A DNA stretch of 64,000 nt from a virus. The stretch lies in IMG/VR virus record IMGVR_UViG_3300023199_000204, positions 186,001 to 250,000 of that record. One strand, 5' to 3'. The notes under the pieces are model-generated. The model saw only the letters and a program-made list of their open reading frames with translations, did not search any database and was not told the DNA's origin. Both the position numbers and the translations under genes were made by a program. Shown one piece after another: positions 39,628-60,445 of this stretch (its first letter is position 1; every line of letters starts with the position of its first letter).

Positions 39628-39641
39628 TAAGAGAGGTGCTG

Positions 39642-41954
39642 ATGGAAAAAATACAACTTCCGGTTCTTCCAATTAGAAGTCCCGATTTTCTTTTATTCCC
39701 TTGTTCTTTTGGGGATATTTATGTAGGAAGAGAATTTTCAATAGAAGCTCTAGCGTCTGCTAGAGCTAATAAAATTAATTTACTACTTGCTTTTCAAAAA
39801 GACCCTATAATTGACGAGCCAGAAATTGATGATTTACATAACATATGTGTTGAAGCAGAAATAAAAGACATTGTTAAAAACTCAACTGGTCCCGCCAGAG
39901 TTGTTTTAAGTGGTATAAAAAGAGCAGTACTTAAAGATTATTATCTTAGTGAAGGTAATTTTTATGTAGCCGATATAAAATATGTAAAGGAACCAAACTT
40001 TGAGCTAACTGATGATGATAAAGAAAAAATAAAAGTGCTTAGAGAAATTATAAGTACTTATTTTAAATCAGTAGTCATTAAAGTTAATGAAGTAAACTCT
40101 TCTGAAGATTTATCAAACTATGTAGATAATATATGTGGTCAATTATATAAGATATTTAGAACTAATAAAATACTTTTAAAACTTTTAAAAACTAAGCATC
40201 CTAGAAAAAGATTAGAAGGTTTGTTCGACATAATATCAAAAGAATCAAAATATAAAGAAGTTTCTTTTGATATGGAAAATGATTCTGAAATGGACGATGA
40301 CCATCCAGCAATAACAGATATTAAAAAGTTACATGACCAAGCGGCAGCAACCGAATTTCCTGAAGAAGTAGCAAAAGTTGTTGGGAGAGAACTTAAAAGA
40401 ATAAGAATGCTTCCACCAGGGAATGCTGAATTCCAAGTTACATATTCTTACTTAGATACTTTAATTGCTCTTCCTTGGAACAAATATACTGAAGATAAAC
40501 TAGATATAGAAGTTGCTAAAGATATATTAAATAGAGATCATTATGGAATGATAAAAGCCAAGGAAAGAATTTTAGAATTTTTGGCAGTTAAAAAATTAGT
40601 TTCTGAAAAGAAAGGTTCTATTCTCTGTTTCTGTGGTCCTCCCGGCGTAGGTAAAACTAGTATTGCCAGAAGTATAGCAGAAGCCGTTGGTAGAAAGTTT
40701 ATTAGGATGTCACTTGGTGGAATTAGTGACGAGGCAGAAATAAGAGGTCATAGAAAAACTTATATAGGGTCTATGGTTGGTAAGATAATGCAGCAGATTA
40801 AGAGAGTAGGAGTTAAGAACCCTGTATTTTTATTGGATGAGATTGATAAGATAAGCAAGAATTTTAAAGGAGACCCTGCGGCAGCATTATTAGAAGTATT
40901 AGATCCGGAACAGAATTCTACATTCGTAGATAATTATTTAGGCGTGCCTTTTGATTTATCACGAGTGATGTTCCTAGCAACTGCTAATGACATAAGTATG
41001 TTAGTCCCTGCTTTAAGAGATAGGTTGGAGATAATTGAAATATCTGGTTATTCAATTTTTGATAAAATAAAAATCGCTCAAAACTATTTACTTCCAAAAC
41101 AGCAAAAAGAAAATGGGCTTAAAGATTATGACATAACTGTTTCAGCAAAAGCGATAGAAAAAGTAATAGAAGAGTATACAAGAGAATCTGGGGTTCGTTC
41201 TTTAGAGAGAACTTGTGGAGCAATTATGAGAAAAATTGCTGTGATGGTTGCTTCAGGTAAAGATCCATATTCAATGATTAAAGCGGATATGATTCCTAAT
41301 CTACTAGGACCTCCAAAGGAATATTCAGAAAAGGCTGCCGAAAGACCAGAGATTGGGTTGTCAACTGGGCTAGCTTGGTCTGAAACAGGTGGTTCCATTT
41401 TATTTGTAGAGTGTTCTCTTAGTAATGGGAAAGGAAAAGTAATCTTAACAGGAAATTTAGGAAAAGTTATACAAGAATCAGCACAAGCTGCTTATACTTA
41501 TATAAAATCAAATTCAGAATCTCTTGGGATTGACACATCTTTAGTTGAAAACAGAGATGTTCATATTCACTTTCCAGCGGGAGCGATTCCAAAAGACGGT
41601 CCTAGTGCGGGAGTTGCTTTAGTTTCAGCAATGCTTTCTTGTTTCTTATTAAAGCCTGTTAGAAATGATATAGCAATGACTGGAGAGATAAGTTTAAGAG
41701 GAAGAGTTATGCCAATAGGTGGTTTAAGAGAGAAGGTTTTGGCAGCAGACCGAGCAGGAATAAGCACTGTATTATATCCCAAATTAAATAAATATGATTT
41801 GGAGGAAATTCCTGAAGATGTAAGGAAAAAGATGAAATTAATACAGATTTATCATATATCAGAAGCTATTGATTTGCTGTTAGTAGATGGGCAGGGGAAT
41901 GATAATAATGAATTGTCTTTACCAAGTACCCCAGTTGTTAATAGAAGTATCTAA
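39642..41954 (+). CDS. lon: Lon protease
   Basis: Full-length, 770 residues. N-terminal Lon substrate domain (PVLPIRSPDFLLFP), a helical linker, AAA module with Walker A GPPGVGKT (332-339), Walker B VFLLDEIDK, and the protease domain with catalytic Ser655 (KDGPSAGVAL) and Lys698 (GGLREKVLAA). It unfolds and degrades proteins with ATP. ATG 39642 follows GAGAGG; the GTG six bases upstream is less likely. Phage-encoded Lon is rare; intact here, so presumably selected. Its TAA is the left edge of boundary element 3. Confidence 0.93.
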   Translation: MEKIQLPVLPIRSPDFLLFPCSFGDIYVGREFSIEALASARANKINLLLAFQKDPIIDEPEIDDLHNICVEAEIKDIVKNSTGPARVVLSGIKRAVLKDYYLSEGNFYVADIKYVKEPNFELTDDDKEKIKVLREIISTYFKSVVIKVNEVNSSEDLSNYVDNICGQLYKIFRTNKILLKLLKTKHPRKRLEGLFDIISKESKYKEVSFDMENDSEMDDDHPAITDIKKLHDQAAATEFPEEVAKVVGRELKRIRMLPPGNAEFQVTYSYLDTLIALPWNKYTEDKLDIEVAKDILNRDHYGMIKAKERILEFLAVKKLVSEKKGSILCFCGPPGVGKTSIARSIAEAVGRKFIRMSLGGISDEAEIRGHRKTYIGSMVGKIMQQIKRVGVKNPVFLLDEIDKISKNFKGDPAAALLEVLDPEQNSTFVDNYLGVPFDLSRVMFLATANDISMLVPALRDRLEIIEISGYSIFDKIKIAQNYLLPKQQKENGLKDYDITVSAKAIEKVIEEYTRESGVRSLERTCGAIMRKIAVMVASGKDPYSMIKADMIPNLLGPPKEYSEKAAERPEIGLSTGLAWSETGGSILFVECSLSNGKGKVILTGNLGKVIQESAQAAYTYIKSNSESLGIDTSLVENRDVHIHFPAGAIPKDGPSAGVALVSAMLSCFLLKPVRNDIAMTGEISLRGRVMPIGGLREKVLAADRAGISTVLYPKLNKYDLEEIPEDVRKKMKLIQIYHISEAIDLLLVDGQGNDNNELSLPSTPVVNRSI

Positions 41955-42256: not shown

Positions 42257-42456
42257 GCATTGATGAATATTTAAAACCATTGTGTAATTTCTACTTAACA
42301 TTAGCAATAGTGCTATTATTAACAACTATAATAACATATTTTACATTACCTGTAGAAATTTCACAAATATCTTGTTTAGGATTATTGTGGTCAATGTTTG
42401 GTTATATATTTAATAAAAAATTATTAACCTCGCGTGGAAATAATAACGAGAAATAA
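42247..42456 (+). CDS. Two-helix membrane protein, 69 aa
   Basis: Two membrane helices (about residues 11-32 and 38-56). Overlaps the zinc-ribbon gene by ten bases; stop two bases before the next ATG. Function unknown. Confidence 0.5.
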   Translation: MEISIDEYLKPLCNFYLTLAIVLLLTTIITYFTLPVEISQISCLGLLWSMFGYIFNKKLLTSRGNNNEK

Positions 42457-42457
42457 A

Positions 42458-43822
42458 ATGGATGTAATTAAAGGAACAGTCTCTATTCCTAGTGGCTATT
42501 TTAACAGAATAGTTAAACAGGAATACTCAAGGTGGGGGAGGGCTTTAATTCGGGAGTTCCTTCAGAACTCAATTGACGCAGGGGCTTCGGAAGTAAAATT
42601 TAGATTTAAAGAAGATAATCTTACACTTACGATTACTGATGATGGTTGTGGAATGAATAAGGACACAATCATTAACAAGTTATTAGTATTGGGTGGAACA
42701 AAAAAGAGAATAGGCTCGGTTGGTGGGTTTGGAAAGGCAAAAGAAATATTGTTTTTCTCTTGGAGAAACTATTCAATAAAAACACAAAACTATTTAGTAG
42801 AAGGTTCAGAAGCCGATTTTTCTATAAGAGAAATAGATACATATCACTTTGGGACAAAGTGTATTATTCAATTTAATACTATGAGTGAATATAAATATGC
42901 TATGTCTTCTGCTACAAACTACCTTCCAGAAAATGAAGTAGAGGCTGACATATATTTAAATACTATCAAAGTTAAATGCTCACATTCTAACAAAGAAAAA
43001 TTAAAAGATTTAGGCTGGGGCATCTTATACAAGTCTAACAGAAGTAAGTTTGATATTCTGATTAGAAAAAATGGAATAAACATGTATAATTTACACTCCT
43101 CTTCAATTAAAGGATTAATTATTGAACTAACTGAAGAATCAATTGATGTGCTTAAAGCCAATAGAGATAGTTTAGTATTTGAAAAAGAACAGGAGTTAAT
43201 TAAAGTCATTAGGAATTTGGATACAAATAAAGCAATAGTGCTTTATAATTTAGAAGAAGATGTCCAAGAAGTGATAGAAGGAAAAAAAGGAGTATTTTAT
43301 AATCCACTTTGTAATAAAGTATCACTAGAAATAAATAATAGTATTGTAAAGCCACTTGTTAAATCAAAGTTTATCTTAGATGTAAATAATGATTTTATTA
43401 TTAGGAAAACTAAAAGTTTTTCATATGAAAAGATTAACGTATTTTTAACACAAAATAAAAAAGTTGCTGAAGCAGTGGCAAATGAGTGGGCTAAATTAAT
43501 ATCTAATATTATTGTTGCTAATAATATCAAGGTTCCATTTATAAGACCTGGGTTTTATTTCAGTGAAAATATAAATGGATTGTGTGAGGGTGAGATTACA
43601 TGCCCTTCAATTCTAATTAACCCCTTGAGCAATGATTTACAAGAAGAAATTAAAAAAGGAGGTGTGTTTTTATTAAAAGCATATATAGAAGATATTGCTT
43701 ATCACGAGTTATCTCACATAAGCAACAGATCTCATAATGAGAGTTTTGTATTCTCTTTGGAAGGGCTTAGGAGAAATCATAGGCAATGGAAGAAGAGAAA
43801 TTTTGTTAGTGTAGTTCTTTAA
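42458..43822 (+). CDS. GHKL ATPase fused to a HExxH metallopeptidase-like tail
   Basis: Start at ATG 42458. N-terminal Bergerat ATP site: IREFLQNSIDAGAS (N box), ITDDGCGMNKD (G1) and GSVGGFGKAKEILFF (G2), as in Hsp90/MutL-type ATPases. Near the C-terminus, AYHELSHISNRSHNESF is an HExxH zinc motif with a third His six residues on, as in SprT/ImmA-like peptidases. 454 residues. The pairing suggests ATP-gated peptide handling. Lies just upstream of the PRTRC-like cassette. Confidence 0.72.
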   Translation: MDVIKGTVSIPSGYFNRIVKQEYSRWGRALIREFLQNSIDAGASEVKFRFKEDNLTLTITDDGCGMNKDTIINKLLVLGGTKKRIGSVGGFGKAKEILFFSWRNYSIKTQNYLVEGSEADFSIREIDTYHFGTKCIIQFNTMSEYKYAMSSATNYLPENEVEADIYLNTIKVKCSHSNKEKLKDLGWGILYKSNRSKFDILIRKNGINMYNLHSSSIKGLIIELTEESIDVLKANRDSLVFEKEQELIKVIRNLDTNKAIVLYNLEEDVQEVIEGKKGVFYNPLCNKVSLEINNSIVKPLVKSKFILDVNNDFIIRKTKSFSYEKINVFLTQNKKVAEAVANEWAKLISNIIVANNIKVPFIRPGFYFSENINGLCEGEITCPSILINPLSNDLQEEIKKGGVFLLKAYIEDIAYHELSHISNRSHNESFVFSLEGLRRNHRQWKKRNFVSVVL

Positions 43823-43845: not shown

Positions 43846-44037
43846 ATGTCTAATGAAGGAACACCGAAAATCTATCGCTATGGTAATGAGGAAATCGTGA
43901 ATAACGAAGGTCTCTCTCATGACCAAATTCGCCAGGCTTGGGCGACCGTTCACGCGGGTATCGCTAATGCCGAGCTAGTTTGTCTTGGAGACAATGTTTA
44001 CGAGTTTCGTACTGCTGGTGGCGATAAAGGTTGCTAA
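43846..44037 (+). CDS. PRTRC protein C-like small modifier (ubiquitin-like)
   Basis: 63 residues resembling PRTRC protein C, a beta-grasp protein: IYRYGNEEI at the start, SHDQIRQAWATVHAGIANAE in the middle and VYEFRTAGGDKGC at the end. PRTRC C is thought to be handled by the ThiF/E1 protein encoded downstream. Strong ribosome site GAAGGAGAAAAAGAC, GC-richer codons and its own terminator suggest abundant product, as expected for a modifier. The tail after GG is unusual and would need trimming for a Gly-Gly end, perhaps by the JAB peptidase. Confidence 0.65.
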   Translation: MSNEGTPKIYRYGNEEIVNNEGLSHDQIRQAWATVHAGIANAELVCLGDNVYEFRTAGGDKGC

Positions 44038-44045
44038 AGGAGCTT

Positions 44046-44078
44046 TGCCCCCGTCCATAAGTTATTTGGACGGGGGCA
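44046..44078 (+). terminator. Strong intrinsic terminator
   Basis: TGCCCCCGTCCA (44046-44057) and its exact complement (44067-44078) form a 12-bp stem with a nine-base loop, followed by TTGTTTTA. Ends the transcript of the small modifier, so downstream PRTRC genes depend on readthrough or another promoter. Confidence 0.85.
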
Positions 44079-44088
44079 TTGTTTTATT

Positions 44089-44346
44089 ATGAATGACATA
44101 ATTATTAAAAGTTTATTTAACACTAACGGCAATTCAGAAAAGTCTATATTAAATAATATAAAATTATTAATGTCTTTAAAGGATCCACAAAGCTGTGATT
44201 TGTCAGTTGAAGATCTAGACGCAATTTTAGAATACTCTAACACTTCAAACACTTCAAACTTAAGCAAAAAGAAAGTTTTTATTTTTAAAAGATTGATTAA
44301 TAATCTTAGATTTGTAGAAGTAAAGGATGATAAATTTTTCATATGA
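44089..44346 (+). CDS. Hypothetical protein, 85 aa
   Basis: ATG 44089 right after the terminator. Helical, with a Ser/Thr-rich middle (AILEYSNTSNTSNLSKKK). Overlaps the next gene by four bases. Lies inside the PRTRC-like cassette but matches no PRTRC protein I know. Confidence 0.5.
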   Translation: MNDIIIKSLFNTNGNSEKSILNNIKLLMSLKDPQSCDLSVEDLDAILEYSNTSNTSNLSKKKVFIFKRLINNLRFVEVKDDKFFI

Positions 44347-45140
44347 ACTTAAAAAAATTAAATAAAGATGAATTTATGTCCTTAGTTTATTGTCAAGCAG
44401 ATTTTCTTAAAATATATAAAGAATGCGACAAATTAGGAATTGATGTTGAAAATGTTATTATGCCAATTCAAAAAAGGAATTTATATTCTGCCAATGGTAA
44501 CAGAATAACTTTGTTTAATAAATTTATTAAAGCATTATTTCCTAGTTATAATTCTCCTGTAATTAATGGAGTGGAAAATATCAGCCTTAGTGCGAACAAG
44601 GAACTAAATAAATTATATTCTTATGCTTGGAATAATAGATATAGCTTTACCAGTCTAGGAGTTCCAAATTATTTAGTCTCAGCAAACAGTGAGTTTAATA
44701 ATCTTAAAAGACAGTTTAATAATCTTTATCTTTATAAAGTTAGCATTTCCACTCTAGGTCAGATAGACATAGACTTATCACAATTTAAAACCAATAATAA
44801 TTTAATAGATAATTCTATAAAATTATATAGAGACTATGGTCTTAATATTGATTATTATAATGCTAGTGATAGATACTGTTACTCAAATATAATACCAGTT
44901 ATTAAAAAATTAGCAGTTCTTTCTGAAAAAATTAAAGTAGCTTTAATAAAACTAGAAGAATTACATAAGTTTTATATATCGGAATTAAAAGAGAGGAAGA
45001 AAAAAGTTTTAGATGGTGTTATAAAAAATGCCGCACAGCAACCGAGAAGCTATAGTCCTGAACTTGATAATAGAATTAAAAACATAAAAGAGAGCGATGC
45101 TCAAAGAGCATTTGAAGAAGCACTAAGGAATACACCGTAA
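44343..45140 (+). CDS. Hypothetical protein in PRTRC cassette, 265 aa
   Basis: Starts on ATGA overlap and ends on TAATG overlap with the B-like gene, so clearly part of the operon. Tyr/Asn-rich, mostly helical, with a Lys-rich coiled coil near residues 195-225. No recognised domain. It could take the place of PRTRC E or F, or be a target or partner; that is speculation. Confidence 0.55.
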   Translation: MNLKKLNKDEFMSLVYCQADFLKIYKECDKLGIDVENVIMPIQKRNLYSANGNRITLFNKFIKALFPSYNSPVINGVENISLSANKELNKLYSYAWNNRYSFTSLGVPNYLVSANSEFNNLKRQFNNLYLYKVSISTLGQIDIDLSQFKTNNNLIDNSIKLYRDYGLNIDYYNASDRYCYSNIIPVIKKLAVLSEKIKVALIKLEELHKFYISELKERKKKVLDGVIKNAAQQPRSYSPELDNRIKNIKESDAQRAFEEALRNTP

Positions 45141-45871
45141 TGAAATTAAGTACTTTAAATAATTCAGAAGTTTTAATCAAATTAACAGCAGACTCTTCCT
45201 CTGTGGAGGTAGATTTTATAGATAAAAAAAGTGAAATAGTTACTTCGAAATCAATATCAATTGACGAATTAATTCATAGTTTAGCCTCTGGATATTCTTT
45301 CAACACTGGTCTTCTTCCCAAAGGTATAAGATCATTTTCAGGAACAAAAGACTATTATACAGTAATAGTAGAAATGCCTGCCCGCAAAAGAAAAGTTTTG
45401 GTTATGGATTATAATTCTGAATTCTCAGAAGAAGAGGACAAGTTGCTTCCATTTCCTGATATGGTTTTTCTAATCAGAGTAAATAATTCTATTGTCGAGA
45501 TGGAAAGCTGTAGGCTCTTTGCCCTTAAAAGACCTATAGCTACATATAATGATCGTTTATATAGGTTTCCTTTAGGAAATGTATATGGAAAAGAAGAATA
45601 TAACTATAAAATATGTTGGAACTCGGTTAGAATGGATCCAGTTAATGAAATAGTTGAGATTAATCAAGTAATTGACAAGTTTTTTAACAGCACTTTTAAT
45701 GGTGACTTGATAAACGATGGAGGGATTTGTTTTAACTCAATGGTAGCACAAGATTTTAGTGAATTTCATTATCATTTAGCAGAATTAGATACGTTTCCAA
45801 TAAATACTTTAGTAGAGACAGATTTAACAATAAGAGATTTAATAGAAAAAGATTTGAATGGAGATTATTAA
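45140..45871 (+). CDS. PRTRC protein B-like
   Basis: 243 residues. The central and C-terminal segments fit PRTRC protein B: FLIRVNNSIVEMESCRLFAL, KRPIATYNDRLYRFPLGNVY, KICWNS and a late DKFFNSTFNGDL. PRTRC B is always found beside PRTRC A, C and ThiF proteins; its biochemical job is unknown. Its position directly before the JAB-type gene supports the call. N-terminal third is beta-rich. Confidence 0.65.
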   Translation: MKLSTLNNSEVLIKLTADSSSVEVDFIDKKSEIVTSKSISIDELIHSLASGYSFNTGLLPKGIRSFSGTKDYYTVIVEMPARKRKVLVMDYNSEFSEEEDKLLPFPDMVFLIRVNNSIVEMESCRLFALKRPIATYNDRLYRFPLGNVYGKEEYNYKICWNSVRMDPVNEIVEINQVIDKFFNSTFNGDLINDGGICFNSMVAQDFSEFHYHLAELDTFPINTLVETDLTIRDLIEKDLNGDY

Positions 45872-45873
45872 AA

Positions 45874-46980
45874 ATGGGAAAAAGAAAAAAGAATAAAAGG
45901 ACACGAAGTCATTCTTCAAATGATGTTACTCAAGGTAACAAAAGAGCTATTATAGTAAAAAATGGCAAAAGCTGCTACGGGCAAAATACTAATCATAGTA
46001 AGAAGCTTTCTGAAGAGGATAAAAAGAAAATGGTTTCTCTACAAAAAATGATGGTTGGTCATTATGTAGAAAATATACCCGAAGATGCTCCAAAAAAAAT
46101 TAATTATGTTCTACAGGGCAATGGTGTTTATGAGAAAAGAGAAAACGATATTGGAGTTTTTATAAGAAAGGTGTCCGCGACACAAGTTCCTGGACTATAC
46201 TCTCCTATTACAGAGGGCTGGAGTCTTAAAGTTCCATTAATACCAGCAGAACTTCTTTGTAAAGCAATTTCTTTTTTCAGAAAAATTTGTAAAACTATGA
46301 ATGAGAGTGAAGTGTTTCTTCAGTTCTTTTTTGATAAGACGAAAGAGGAGTATTTCATACATTGTCCTAAACAAAAAGTTGGAAAAGGTTCTGTAGAGTA
46401 TGAAAATGATGATGTGTATAGAGACTCAAATAATATTTTAGTATTTGAAATCCATAGCCATAATACTATGGACGCGTTCTTTTCAACTACCGATGACGGT
46501 GATGAAAAAGAGGATAGGTTTTATGGGGTTGTTGGAAAACTTAATGAGCATATGCCAACAATTAAATTACGCGGAGTCTTTGCTGGCAAAGAGACTGAAA
46601 TAAAAGTAGAAGATATTTTCGATCTAAGTGGAGACCAATATCATAGTCTAGAATTCCCTAAAGAATGGGAAAATAATGTTACTGTTGCGAATTATTCCGA
46701 GTCTTATAGAGGTTTCTTTTCGTCAGAAAGTAGGAATAGATGGTTTGATAAGGATGATGATGAAACTAAAAAGGAAAGTAAAGAATCTAATTTTGATTTG
46801 GTTGTTTATAATGGGGGACAAGGAAGTGTTCCAGGAAACACTGATAAACCTAAACCTAAATCTAAACTAGATGAAGAAATTCAAGCCATTATGAGTAAAT
46901 ATTATCGTGAGCCATCACAAGATAATGACGACGATAATGATGTAAATGAACTATATAGAAGAGGATATTTCTGGGAGTAA
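45874..46980 (+). CDS. JAB/MPN+ metallopeptidase, PRTRC A-like
   Basis: 368 residues. VFEIHSHNTMDAFFSTTDD contains a perfect HxH-x10-D JAMM motif (His194, His196, Asp207) and the AFFSxxD run seen in PRTRC protein A. JAMM enzymes cleave ubiquitin-like proteins from targets or mature them. N-terminal 60 residues are basic and probably disordered; C-terminal 80 are acidic and Pro/Lys-rich. It sits between the B-like and E1-like genes, so likely processes the small modifier. Confidence 0.8.
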   Translation: MGKRKKNKRTRSHSSNDVTQGNKRAIIVKNGKSCYGQNTNHSKKLSEEDKKKMVSLQKMMVGHYVENIPEDAPKKINYVLQGNGVYEKRENDIGVFIRKVSATQVPGLYSPITEGWSLKVPLIPAELLCKAISFFRKICKTMNESEVFLQFFFDKTKEEYFIHCPKQKVGKGSVEYENDDVYRDSNNILVFEIHSHNTMDAFFSTTDDGDEKEDRFYGVVGKLNEHMPTIKLRGVFAGKETEIKVEDIFDLSGDQYHSLEFPKEWENNVTVANYSESYRGFFSSESRNRWFDKDDDETKKESKESNFDLVVYNGGQGSVPGNTDKPKPKSKLDEEIQAIMSKYYREPSQDNDDDNDVNELYRRGYFWE

Positions 46981-46981
46981 A

Positions 46982-47830
46982 ATGAATTCATTACCAAAAG
47001 TATATTATCTTAGTGGTTATAGAGCAATAACTGATATATTTTTAGTTGGTTGTGGTGGAACTGGAAGTTATGTAGCACCTCAGTTGGCAAGATTAAATTA
47101 TTTGATGGGACTGGTAGGAGTTTCCAGGAAAAGAATAATTTTTATTGATGGTGATTCAGTTGAAGAAAAGAATATATCAAGACAGAATTTTATTAAATCT
47201 GATGTAGGAAAAAATAAGGCTCAGGTTTTAGCTAAAAGATATTCATTTGCTTTTCAAAATGAAATACATTCATATTTAAAATATTTAGAATCAGAGGAAG
47301 ATTTTCTAAGAATAATTAAATCTTCTGGAAGGCCAAGCTATCCATTAATAATTGGTTGTGTAGATAATAATAAGACTCGTCACGTGATTAATAGATTTAT
47401 TCAATCTTATAATAAGTCTGTTTTTTGGGTAGACTCTGGAAATGAAGAAACTAATGGACAAGTTATTTGTAGCTTTAAACCTATTTATAATGATTCTAGA
47501 GGAATTAATCCTAGAGAGGCTGCGCCTGGATCAAAAGGAGTATTTACAACCCCTACAGTTGTTGAAGTATTTGATAATATGACAGACACTGGTAAATTTA
47601 ATTCTGAATTAAGTTGCGCAGAAGCCTCTATTAGCAATCCCCAAAATATTATGACCAATGTATCTGCTGCTAATTTGGTAGTAAATTATATAAATAAAAT
47701 CTATAAAAGGGATGATATATCTTCTCACGGAGTTATATTTACCATAAATAATACATTTCAAACAATAATTAATACTGTAGAAACTCTAGCTAAAGTTAAT
47801 CCTGAAAGACTTTGTTCCTGGGAGACCTAA
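46982..47830 (+). CDS. E1/ThiF-like activating enzyme, PRTRC type
   Basis: Nucleotide loop FLVGCGGTGSYVAPQLARL near residue 20, then IIFIDGDSVEEKNISRQNF near residue 55 (the D-x-N-R-Q adenylation site), GKNKAQVLAKR, and LIIGCVDNNKTRH. The segment ELSCAEASISNPQN resembles the SCAE region of PRTRC ThiF proteins. 282 residues. It should adenylate the C-terminus of a small modifier, here most likely the product at 43846. Start at ATG 46982, one base after the JAB stop. Confidence 0.85.
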   Translation: MNSLPKVYYLSGYRAITDIFLVGCGGTGSYVAPQLARLNYLMGLVGVSRKRIIFIDGDSVEEKNISRQNFIKSDVGKNKAQVLAKRYSFAFQNEIHSYLKYLESEEDFLRIIKSSGRPSYPLIIGCVDNNKTRHVINRFIQSYNKSVFWVDSGNEETNGQVICSFKPIYNDSRGINPREAAPGSKGVFTTPTVVEVFDNMTDTGKFNSELSCAEASISNPQNIMTNVSAANLVVNYINKIYKRDDISSHGVIFTINNTFQTIINTVETLAKVNPERLCSWET

Positions 47831-53125: not shown

Positions 53126-53554
53126 ATGTTAATTAGGAGACCTAATTTGTTTTTGAATTATTTTGAGGATTTTATGAGTGATTTCAGTACGTTTGAAAGG
53201 AAAGCTTCTTTACGAAGTCCAACCACTGATATATATGAAAAAGACAATAAGACATATATAGAAATGGAAGTTCCGGGATTTGATGTGGATGATATATCCA
53301 TAACCATAGATAATGGAGTTTTGAATATTAAAGCACATCAGGAAAATTCTAAAGAAGATGAAAGCAAACAATATCAAAGGCTTGAGAGAAAATCAAAATC
53401 TTTCAGCCAGTCTCTTGTTTTAAGCTCTGATATAGATCAAGAGAATATAGAGGCAAATTGTGATAATGGAATTTTAACTGTAGTTCTTACGAAAAAAGAA
53501 GTTCCTGAGCCAAAAAAAATACCAATAGCGAAGAGCCTTAAGTTAATAGAATGA
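53126..53554 (+). CDS. Small heat-shock protein (Hsp20)
   Basis: 142 residues with the alpha-crystallin domain: DIYEKDNKTYIEMEVPGFDV, DISITIDNGVLNIKA, and CDNGILTVVLTKK near the end. C-terminal IPI motif-like (KKIPIAK) helps oligomerise. Holds unfolded proteins for GroEL/ES, also phage-encoded here. Strong site AAGGAGGTG and its own promoter suggest separate control. Similar small Hsps occur in some cyanophages and jumbo phages. Confidence 0.88.
   Translation: MLIRRPNLFLNYFEDFMSDFSTFERKASLRSPTTDIYEKDNKTYIEMEVPGFDVDDISITIDNGVLNIKAHQENSKEDESKQYQRLERKSKSFSQSLVLSSDIDQENIEANCDNGILTVVLTKKEVPEPKKIPIAKSLKLIE

Positions 53555-57921: not shown

Positions 57922-60445
<2,524 letters not shown>

Follow-up and report, generated by a model that had tools for sequence, protein, structure and literature searches.

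A Ubiquitin-Like Cassette of the Bacterial 6d/PRTRC Kind in a Contractile-Tailed Phage and Its Relatives

What purpose might a bacteriophage have for what appears to be the core of a ubiquitin pathway? This question is raised by a 64,000-nucleotide stretch of viral DNA (hereafter the window), which corresponds to bases 186001–250000 of the 316,473-base IMG/VR record IMGVR_UViG_3300023199_000204. On its + strand, between positions 43846 and 47830, genes follow one another in the order C (63 aa), X (85 aa), Y (265 aa), B (243 aa), JAB (368 aa) and ThiF. A first-pass annotation, drawn from the letters alone, had recognized here a PRTRC-like ubiquitin-type cassette in an apparent phage. Both parts of that proposal hold up: the genes lie where it placed them, profiles match B, JAB, and the E1-like ThiF protein, and profile searches outside the window find a tail sheath (1.1e-21), a baseplate wedge protein (9e-42), an endolysin, DnaB, and a ribonucleotide reductase. 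Because of these genes, the source of the record is a contractile-tailed phage. The sheath gene was matched by the PHROG sheath model and missed by PF04984, and the large terminase (TerL) models phrog_2 and PF03237 found no match in the record. The locus encodes the core of the bacterial 6d/PRTRC ubiquitin-like operon without the PRTRC ParB, and its predicted parts amount to a miniature ubiquitin machinery: a tag, an activating enzyme, a relative of conjugating enzymes, and a tag-removing protease. Judged from its sequence, the cassette probably constitutes a complete, reversible ubiquitin-like (Ubl) conjugation system used during infection.

The three enzymes are the most readily identified components. 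B (45140..45871) matches Pfam Prok-E2_D at 8.7e-9, above the gathering score, and TIGR03737 PRTRC_B at 2.7e-9; the JAB/JAMM metalloprotease (45874..46980) matches TIGR03735 PRTRC_A at 1.1e-15; and the E1-like adenylyltransferase matches TIGR03736 PRTRC_ThiF at 1.6e-35. The exact HxH-x10-D motif ascribed to the protease can be read as HSH-x7-S-x2-D (46453..46494), and the E1 nucleotide loop, GxGGxG, is intact, as had been reported. The E1 gene stands while its proposed start at 46946 does not: translation probably begins at ATG 46982, directly past the JAB stop, so that the gene spans 46982..47830. Similarly, B was correctly likened to PRTRC-B, but that description missed its apparent identity as an E2-family protein bearing an invariant cysteine, the candidate catalytic Cys159 (codon 45614..45616, in a PxxN...C signature); its E2 fold is assigned through Pfam and Iyer, Burroughs, and Aravind (2006; PMC1779556).

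The suggested search for the same gene order elsewhere was carried out by IMG/VR scans with ThiF and JAB alignments, which yielded 32 and 96 loci, respectively, 80 of the latter being kept. C, B, JAB, and ThiF occur in this order on one strand in 84 viral loci, reduced to 58 non-redundant loci once those with ≥90% ThiF identity are removed; "viral" here follows the IMG/VR classification, with a terminase match in most of a sample of large records. In the JAB proteins E146, H194, S195, H196, S204, and D207 are each present in 58/58 loci, as are the B cysteine and the candidate thioester cysteine of the E1 (ELSCAE; codon 47615..47617). The loci were found via the patterns HSH[NH]xMxAF and D[VL]xxNKA, so conservation of the pattern residues arises partly by selection; the residues outside them (JAB Glu, Ser, and Asp; E1 Cys; B Cys and Asn) are likewise present in all 58. 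Motifs, homology, and the invariant cysteine together favor the original proposal that the E1 would activate the Ubl.

The C protein (43846..44037) had been described as a C-like beta-grasp candidate. Its family assignment is borne out by profiles built without it: a nine-sequence C profile recovers it at E=1.5e-5 among 20,740 open reading frames (ORFs), and an 80-sequence profile does so at E=0.0017. The latter is the more conservative figure, close sequences having been added to the profiles after weaker attempts, in which ten divergent seeds missed window C, an iterated profile gave E=0.18, and three sequences gave E=0.09. A reverse phmmer search from window C returned nearly exclusively C proteins, and within the family 8 of 27 members match Prok_Ub and 8 of 27 match PRTRC_C. 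Searches among viral sequences turned up no close relative of either window C or window B. The beta-grasp fold is supported rather than shown: AlphaFold predicts a beta-beta-alpha-beta-beta topology with a disordered tail (pLDDT 81), and Foldseek lists ubiquitin and SUMO among its matches to the model, none of them significant (E≥0.15).

How such a protein might be matured is indicated by its relatives. Window C is a single unit, tandem arrays being confined to relatives: in 13 of the 58 non-redundant loci, C consists of 2–6 units. The units end in [A/T]-G-T-K-G. Position −4 is Gly in 79 of the 82 units and position −3 is Thr in 65; the terminal KG served to define the unit boundary, so its occurrence in all 82 is by construction. 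Beyond KG the sequence varies, continuing as another Ubl unit, a short tail, a domain fused to C, or a single cysteine, or ending at a stop. The KG-Cys ending is found in four proteins, those of the window, L001, L061, and L072. Units that are 100% identical in protein yet separated by 20–36 synonymous codon differences are found in loci L010, L019, and L071 as well as among several pairs of L002 and L057; the arrays of L004, L087, and L092 contain diverged units. Since recent duplication would have kept the DNA alike, the codon differences point to selection for identical, interchangeable units, and thus provide strong evidence, at the level of sequence, that interchangeable monomers are released. 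Eukaryotic polyubiquitin genes are built in the same manner, from head-to-tail, protein-identical units with synonymous divergence, the last of which has a short tail or one additional residue as its cap. The tandem C of the relatives resembles such a precursor by analogy; phage C ends in GxKG, not GG, and the likeness is one of organization, with no claim of a sequence relationship. From the array boundaries and the purifying selection on the units, JAB cleavage after GxKG is strongly implied. In the window, where the C tail reads GGDKG followed by the terminal Cys63, the predicted processing site thus falls between Gly62 and Cys63 (44029..44034), and JAB would remove one residue to leave a mature end of DKG. 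Processing of the Ubl by JAB, as first envisaged, therefore remains the expectation, while the removal of four residues to expose GG gives way to the loss of Cys63 only, consistent with the xGxKG end of the relatives.

Expression of C appears to be set apart from that of the enzymes. The genes from X to ThiF are closely spaced, with ATGA and TAATG overlaps, and a GC-rich 12-bp stem-loop, a terminator or attenuator candidate, lies between C and X directly 3′ of C (44046..44078; −31.2 kcal/mol, z −6.9). With a loop of more than 8 nt, this hairpin escaped a terminator scan. Of 55 loci, 1 has a stable structure (z below −3) after B and 22 have one after C, the strongest of these being the window's. 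The C gene has a GC content of 0.464 versus 0.307 for the window. These features agree with the earlier view that C is set up for excess expression. By parting C from the enzyme genes, the hairpin could act as an attenuator that keeps the modifier in excess over its enzymes, an interpretation to which its recurrence across phages lends comparative support.

The two genes once listed as unknown do belong to the operon, but they are better described as positional parts of the cassette. X (44089..44346) and Y (44343..45140) lie between C and B, where relatives carry genes in the same position that are too diverged to align; homology searches of window X and Y against these positional counterparts detected none. 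Y was placed by position, without a profile match, in the slot of the 6d helical protein and PRTRC-F. Among the 43 loci with a separate small ORF, X counterparts end in [DEN][FY][IVLF] in 23, against a background of 0.8% (binomial 5e-36, a figure that ignores relatedness and uses a motif picked after viewing the data). Loci with such counterparts include L001, L002, L005, L012, L040, L057, L070, L111, L119, and L120. The window X tail, DDKFFI, fits only a looser form of the motif. X might conceivably be an adaptor or a preferred substrate. In eleven other loci, the C unit bears a C-terminal extension of ~65–115 aa that ends in GF, possibly X fused to C in the manner of ubiquitin–ribosomal protein fusions.

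The cassette is carried by isolates as well, namely Bacillus phage KLEB27-3, Vibrio phage D69, and the cultured Salmonella phage Arash; related cassettes are found in Myxococcota, Clostridia, Paenibacillus, and other genomes, and ThiF matches occur in 408 plasmid records. In an E1 tree, ParB-linked plasmids form a separate clade (100/100) and 16 phages including Arash form another (100/100), with the window phage on a long, unresolved branch. The true Arash C gene (L213:107-307; 66 aa, ending RTGTKG) is unannotated and is overlapped by a wrong-frame ORF annotated as gp251. Virion mass spectrometry of Arash detected Gp246–Gp249 and Gp251 (PMC10585845).

Assembled into a pathway, these parts suggest that the phage expresses a full ubiquitin-like conjugation cycle in the infected cell. 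With the hairpin leading to C being made in excess, JAB would cut after GxKG, releasing monomers from the tandem precursors of relatives. ThiF, to judge from its motifs and homology, would adenylate the new glycine carboxylate and hold C as a thioester on its invariant cysteine. The invariant cysteine of the E2-like B would next receive C, which would finally be joined to an amine of a target protein. JAB may also strip C from its targets, as suggested by loci that keep JAB although C stops right at KG. X and Y could help select targets or act as adaptors, a role that X might fill by means of its C-terminal tail. The outcome, as originally envisaged, would be the tagging of host or phage proteins; as targets, host proteins or defenses seem somewhat likelier than proteins of the virion or of packaging.

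Several observations weigh against so complete a cycle. The E2 step is the least secure part of the mechanism, because the B model has no significant fold match and because a histidine is replaced. The AlphaFold model of B (pLDDT 86) gave no significant Foldseek match among solved structures, UBC included, and the 6d histidine position downstream of the B cysteine is Asn in 55 of 58 viral loci, the window included, while His occupies it in most of the plasmid B proteins that were sampled (FTH, NTH, KTH). An hhalign comparison with yeast Ubc4 did align the active-site cysteines (P=0.0015; decoys 0.54 and 0.64) and is a lead only. Among solved structures, ThiF matches many E1s, JAB has only weak AMSH matches, and neither B nor C has any meaningful ones. 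Library models likewise fail to match window C, a divergent member of its family. As for the Arash virions, detection amounts to 2–5 unique peptides per protein, and the authors consider carry-over of abundant enzymes into virions possible (PMC10585845). Numbering in that paper and in GenBank seems offset by one, a mismatch under either side of which E1, JAB, and B are detected. Finally, conjugate, cleavage, and adenylation are predictions for all members.

Could the same genes serve another chemistry? Ubl sulfur carriers exist in other systems, and the E1 belongs to the ThiF superfamily, so that ThiF might form a C-terminal thiocarboxylate on C for cofactor or for tRNA or nucleotide thiolation, with JAB only maturing C. 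This is unlikely, given that an E2-family protein with an invariant cysteine is always present, no sulfurtransferase is seen adjoining the cassette, and the GxKG tail is unlike the GG of ThiS and MoaD; the multi-copy precursor and the attenuation, moreover, suggest stoichiometric use. A plasmid-type PRTRC passenger, recently captured and functionless in the phage, would fit with how common these cassettes are on plasmids, but is very improbable: the classical PRTRC plasmids form a clade apart from the well-supported phage clade, the catalytic residues are invariant, and the C units are under purifying selection.

Two further possibilities concern the purpose of the cassette. It might oppose host Ubl defenses of the Bil, Bub, or CBASS Cap2 type, either with JAB stripping off tags that the host attaches or with C serving as a decoy substrate. 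That bacteria use Ubl conjugation against phage is an established fact (PMC10097602; Hor et al., 2024, cited in PMC12660748), and phages would profit from a deconjugase. For that, however, a deconjugase alone would be enough, yet the phages retain E1, E2, and Ubl, the catalytic residues being intact, as expected if conjugation itself is needed, and such counter-defense is rather doubtful. Slightly less doubtful, though still improbable, is that C tags or helps process structural or packaging proteins of the virion. The presence of cassette proteins in purified Arash particles (PMC10585845) speaks for it, as does one phage clade in which the cassette lies within ~5 kb of TerL (eight contigs); the window phage, though, has its sheath and baseplate genes >150 kb from the cassette, none adjoining, and the virion data may reflect carry-over. 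The conjugation reading has a broadest form, in which large tailed phages use their own E1, E2, deconjugase, polyubiquitin-style precursor, and adaptors X and Y to covalently remodel host or virion proteins in the course of infection, a viral tagging pathway not previously described in bacteria; in that form it has about an even chance of being right.

Several neighboring and related genes deserve mention. Ending 24 bp upstream of C, a GHKL-type ATPase (42434-43822) has a C-terminal HExxH motif (YHELSH). Lon protease (39636-41954) and, by eye, Hsp20-like (53126-53554) and GroEL-like (57937-59538) proteins possibly make up a protein quality-control set near the cassette. Elsewhere, six loci carry ThiF-like genes (~185 aa) without other cassette genes, together with homologues of the window GroEL-like protein. 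The PhuZ tubulin model weakly matches (2.5e-5) record positions 117452-118885 of the window phage (L204:17452-18885). In Acinetobacter phage ME3 (L214:2730-5840), the JAB gene is broken at the catalytic HSH by an insertion, perhaps a homing element or intron, that carries a tRNA-Met along with small ORFs. The 220-kb Bacillus velezensis "plasmid" pAD3, whose E1 falls within a Bacillus-phage clade and which has weak TerL matches, is probably a phage or phage-plasmid. The JABs of L126, L146, L160, and other Clostridia loci, as well as L221 and L003, have long N-terminal regions with a C-like segment and an ..AQSKG/KKKG site; a C–JAB fusion in the Clostridia elements (P=7e-5, probability 62%) is only suggestive.

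How much of this is new? Iyer et al. (2006; PMC1779556) described the same four activities in the 6d operon of bacteria: a stand-alone Ubl with a conserved C-terminal glycine, a helical protein, an E2-like protein with its cysteine, JAB, and E1. The 6d operons are bacterial, with a single Ubl and an absolutely conserved E2 histidine, while the phage cassettes often have a tandem Ubl, Asn at the histidine position, and the extra X; between Ubl and E2, where 6d encodes an alpha-helical protein, the window has the 265-aa Y with no detectable homology. In 6d, the N-terminal part of JAB is an alpha+beta domain in which an Arg and a Trp are conserved (PMC1779556); an N-terminal region is present in window JAB. 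With PRTRC (TIGR03735–TIGR03738), the cassette shares the C-F-B-A-ThiF order and homologous A, B, ThiF, and C-family proteins. "PRTRC-like" is thus a fitting label and PRTRC proper is not: the window proteins miss the curated equivalog cut-offs (A, 57.7 bits against 101.8; B, 36.7 against 131.45; ThiF, 122.6 against 144.75), its E1 lies apart from the ParB-linked plasmid clade, and the PRTRC_ParB and ParB_N models, whose controls matched, found nothing in the phage record. The PRTRC protein E model had no match there either, in a search where the controls were also silent. The 6e polyUbl operon (PMC1779556) likewise has JAB and E1 alongside a tandem of two to three Ubl domains, but its JAB is fused to E1 and its E2/RWD is inactive, whereas the phage arrays belong to the Prok_Ub/PRTRC-C family, have separate enzymes, and reach six units. 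The tail-assembly proteins I and K of lambda similarly pair a phage Ubl with a JAB domain, in another gene context and without E1 or E2 (PMC1779556). A literature search, with most subscription papers and preprints outside its reach, found no description of the cassette or of tandem C in phages. The component set, then, is known from 6d and PRTRC, and what appears new from these comparisons is its presence in dozens of large phages, frequently with tandem C.

The function of the 6d and PRTRC cassettes has been open since 2006. Conservation in phages and a precursor that pins down the processing site make it directly testable, the more so as Arash is in culture and three of its cassette proteins are already in virion data. 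Should conjugation be demonstrated, phages would be seen to employ the Ubl pathway themselves besides being targeted by it.

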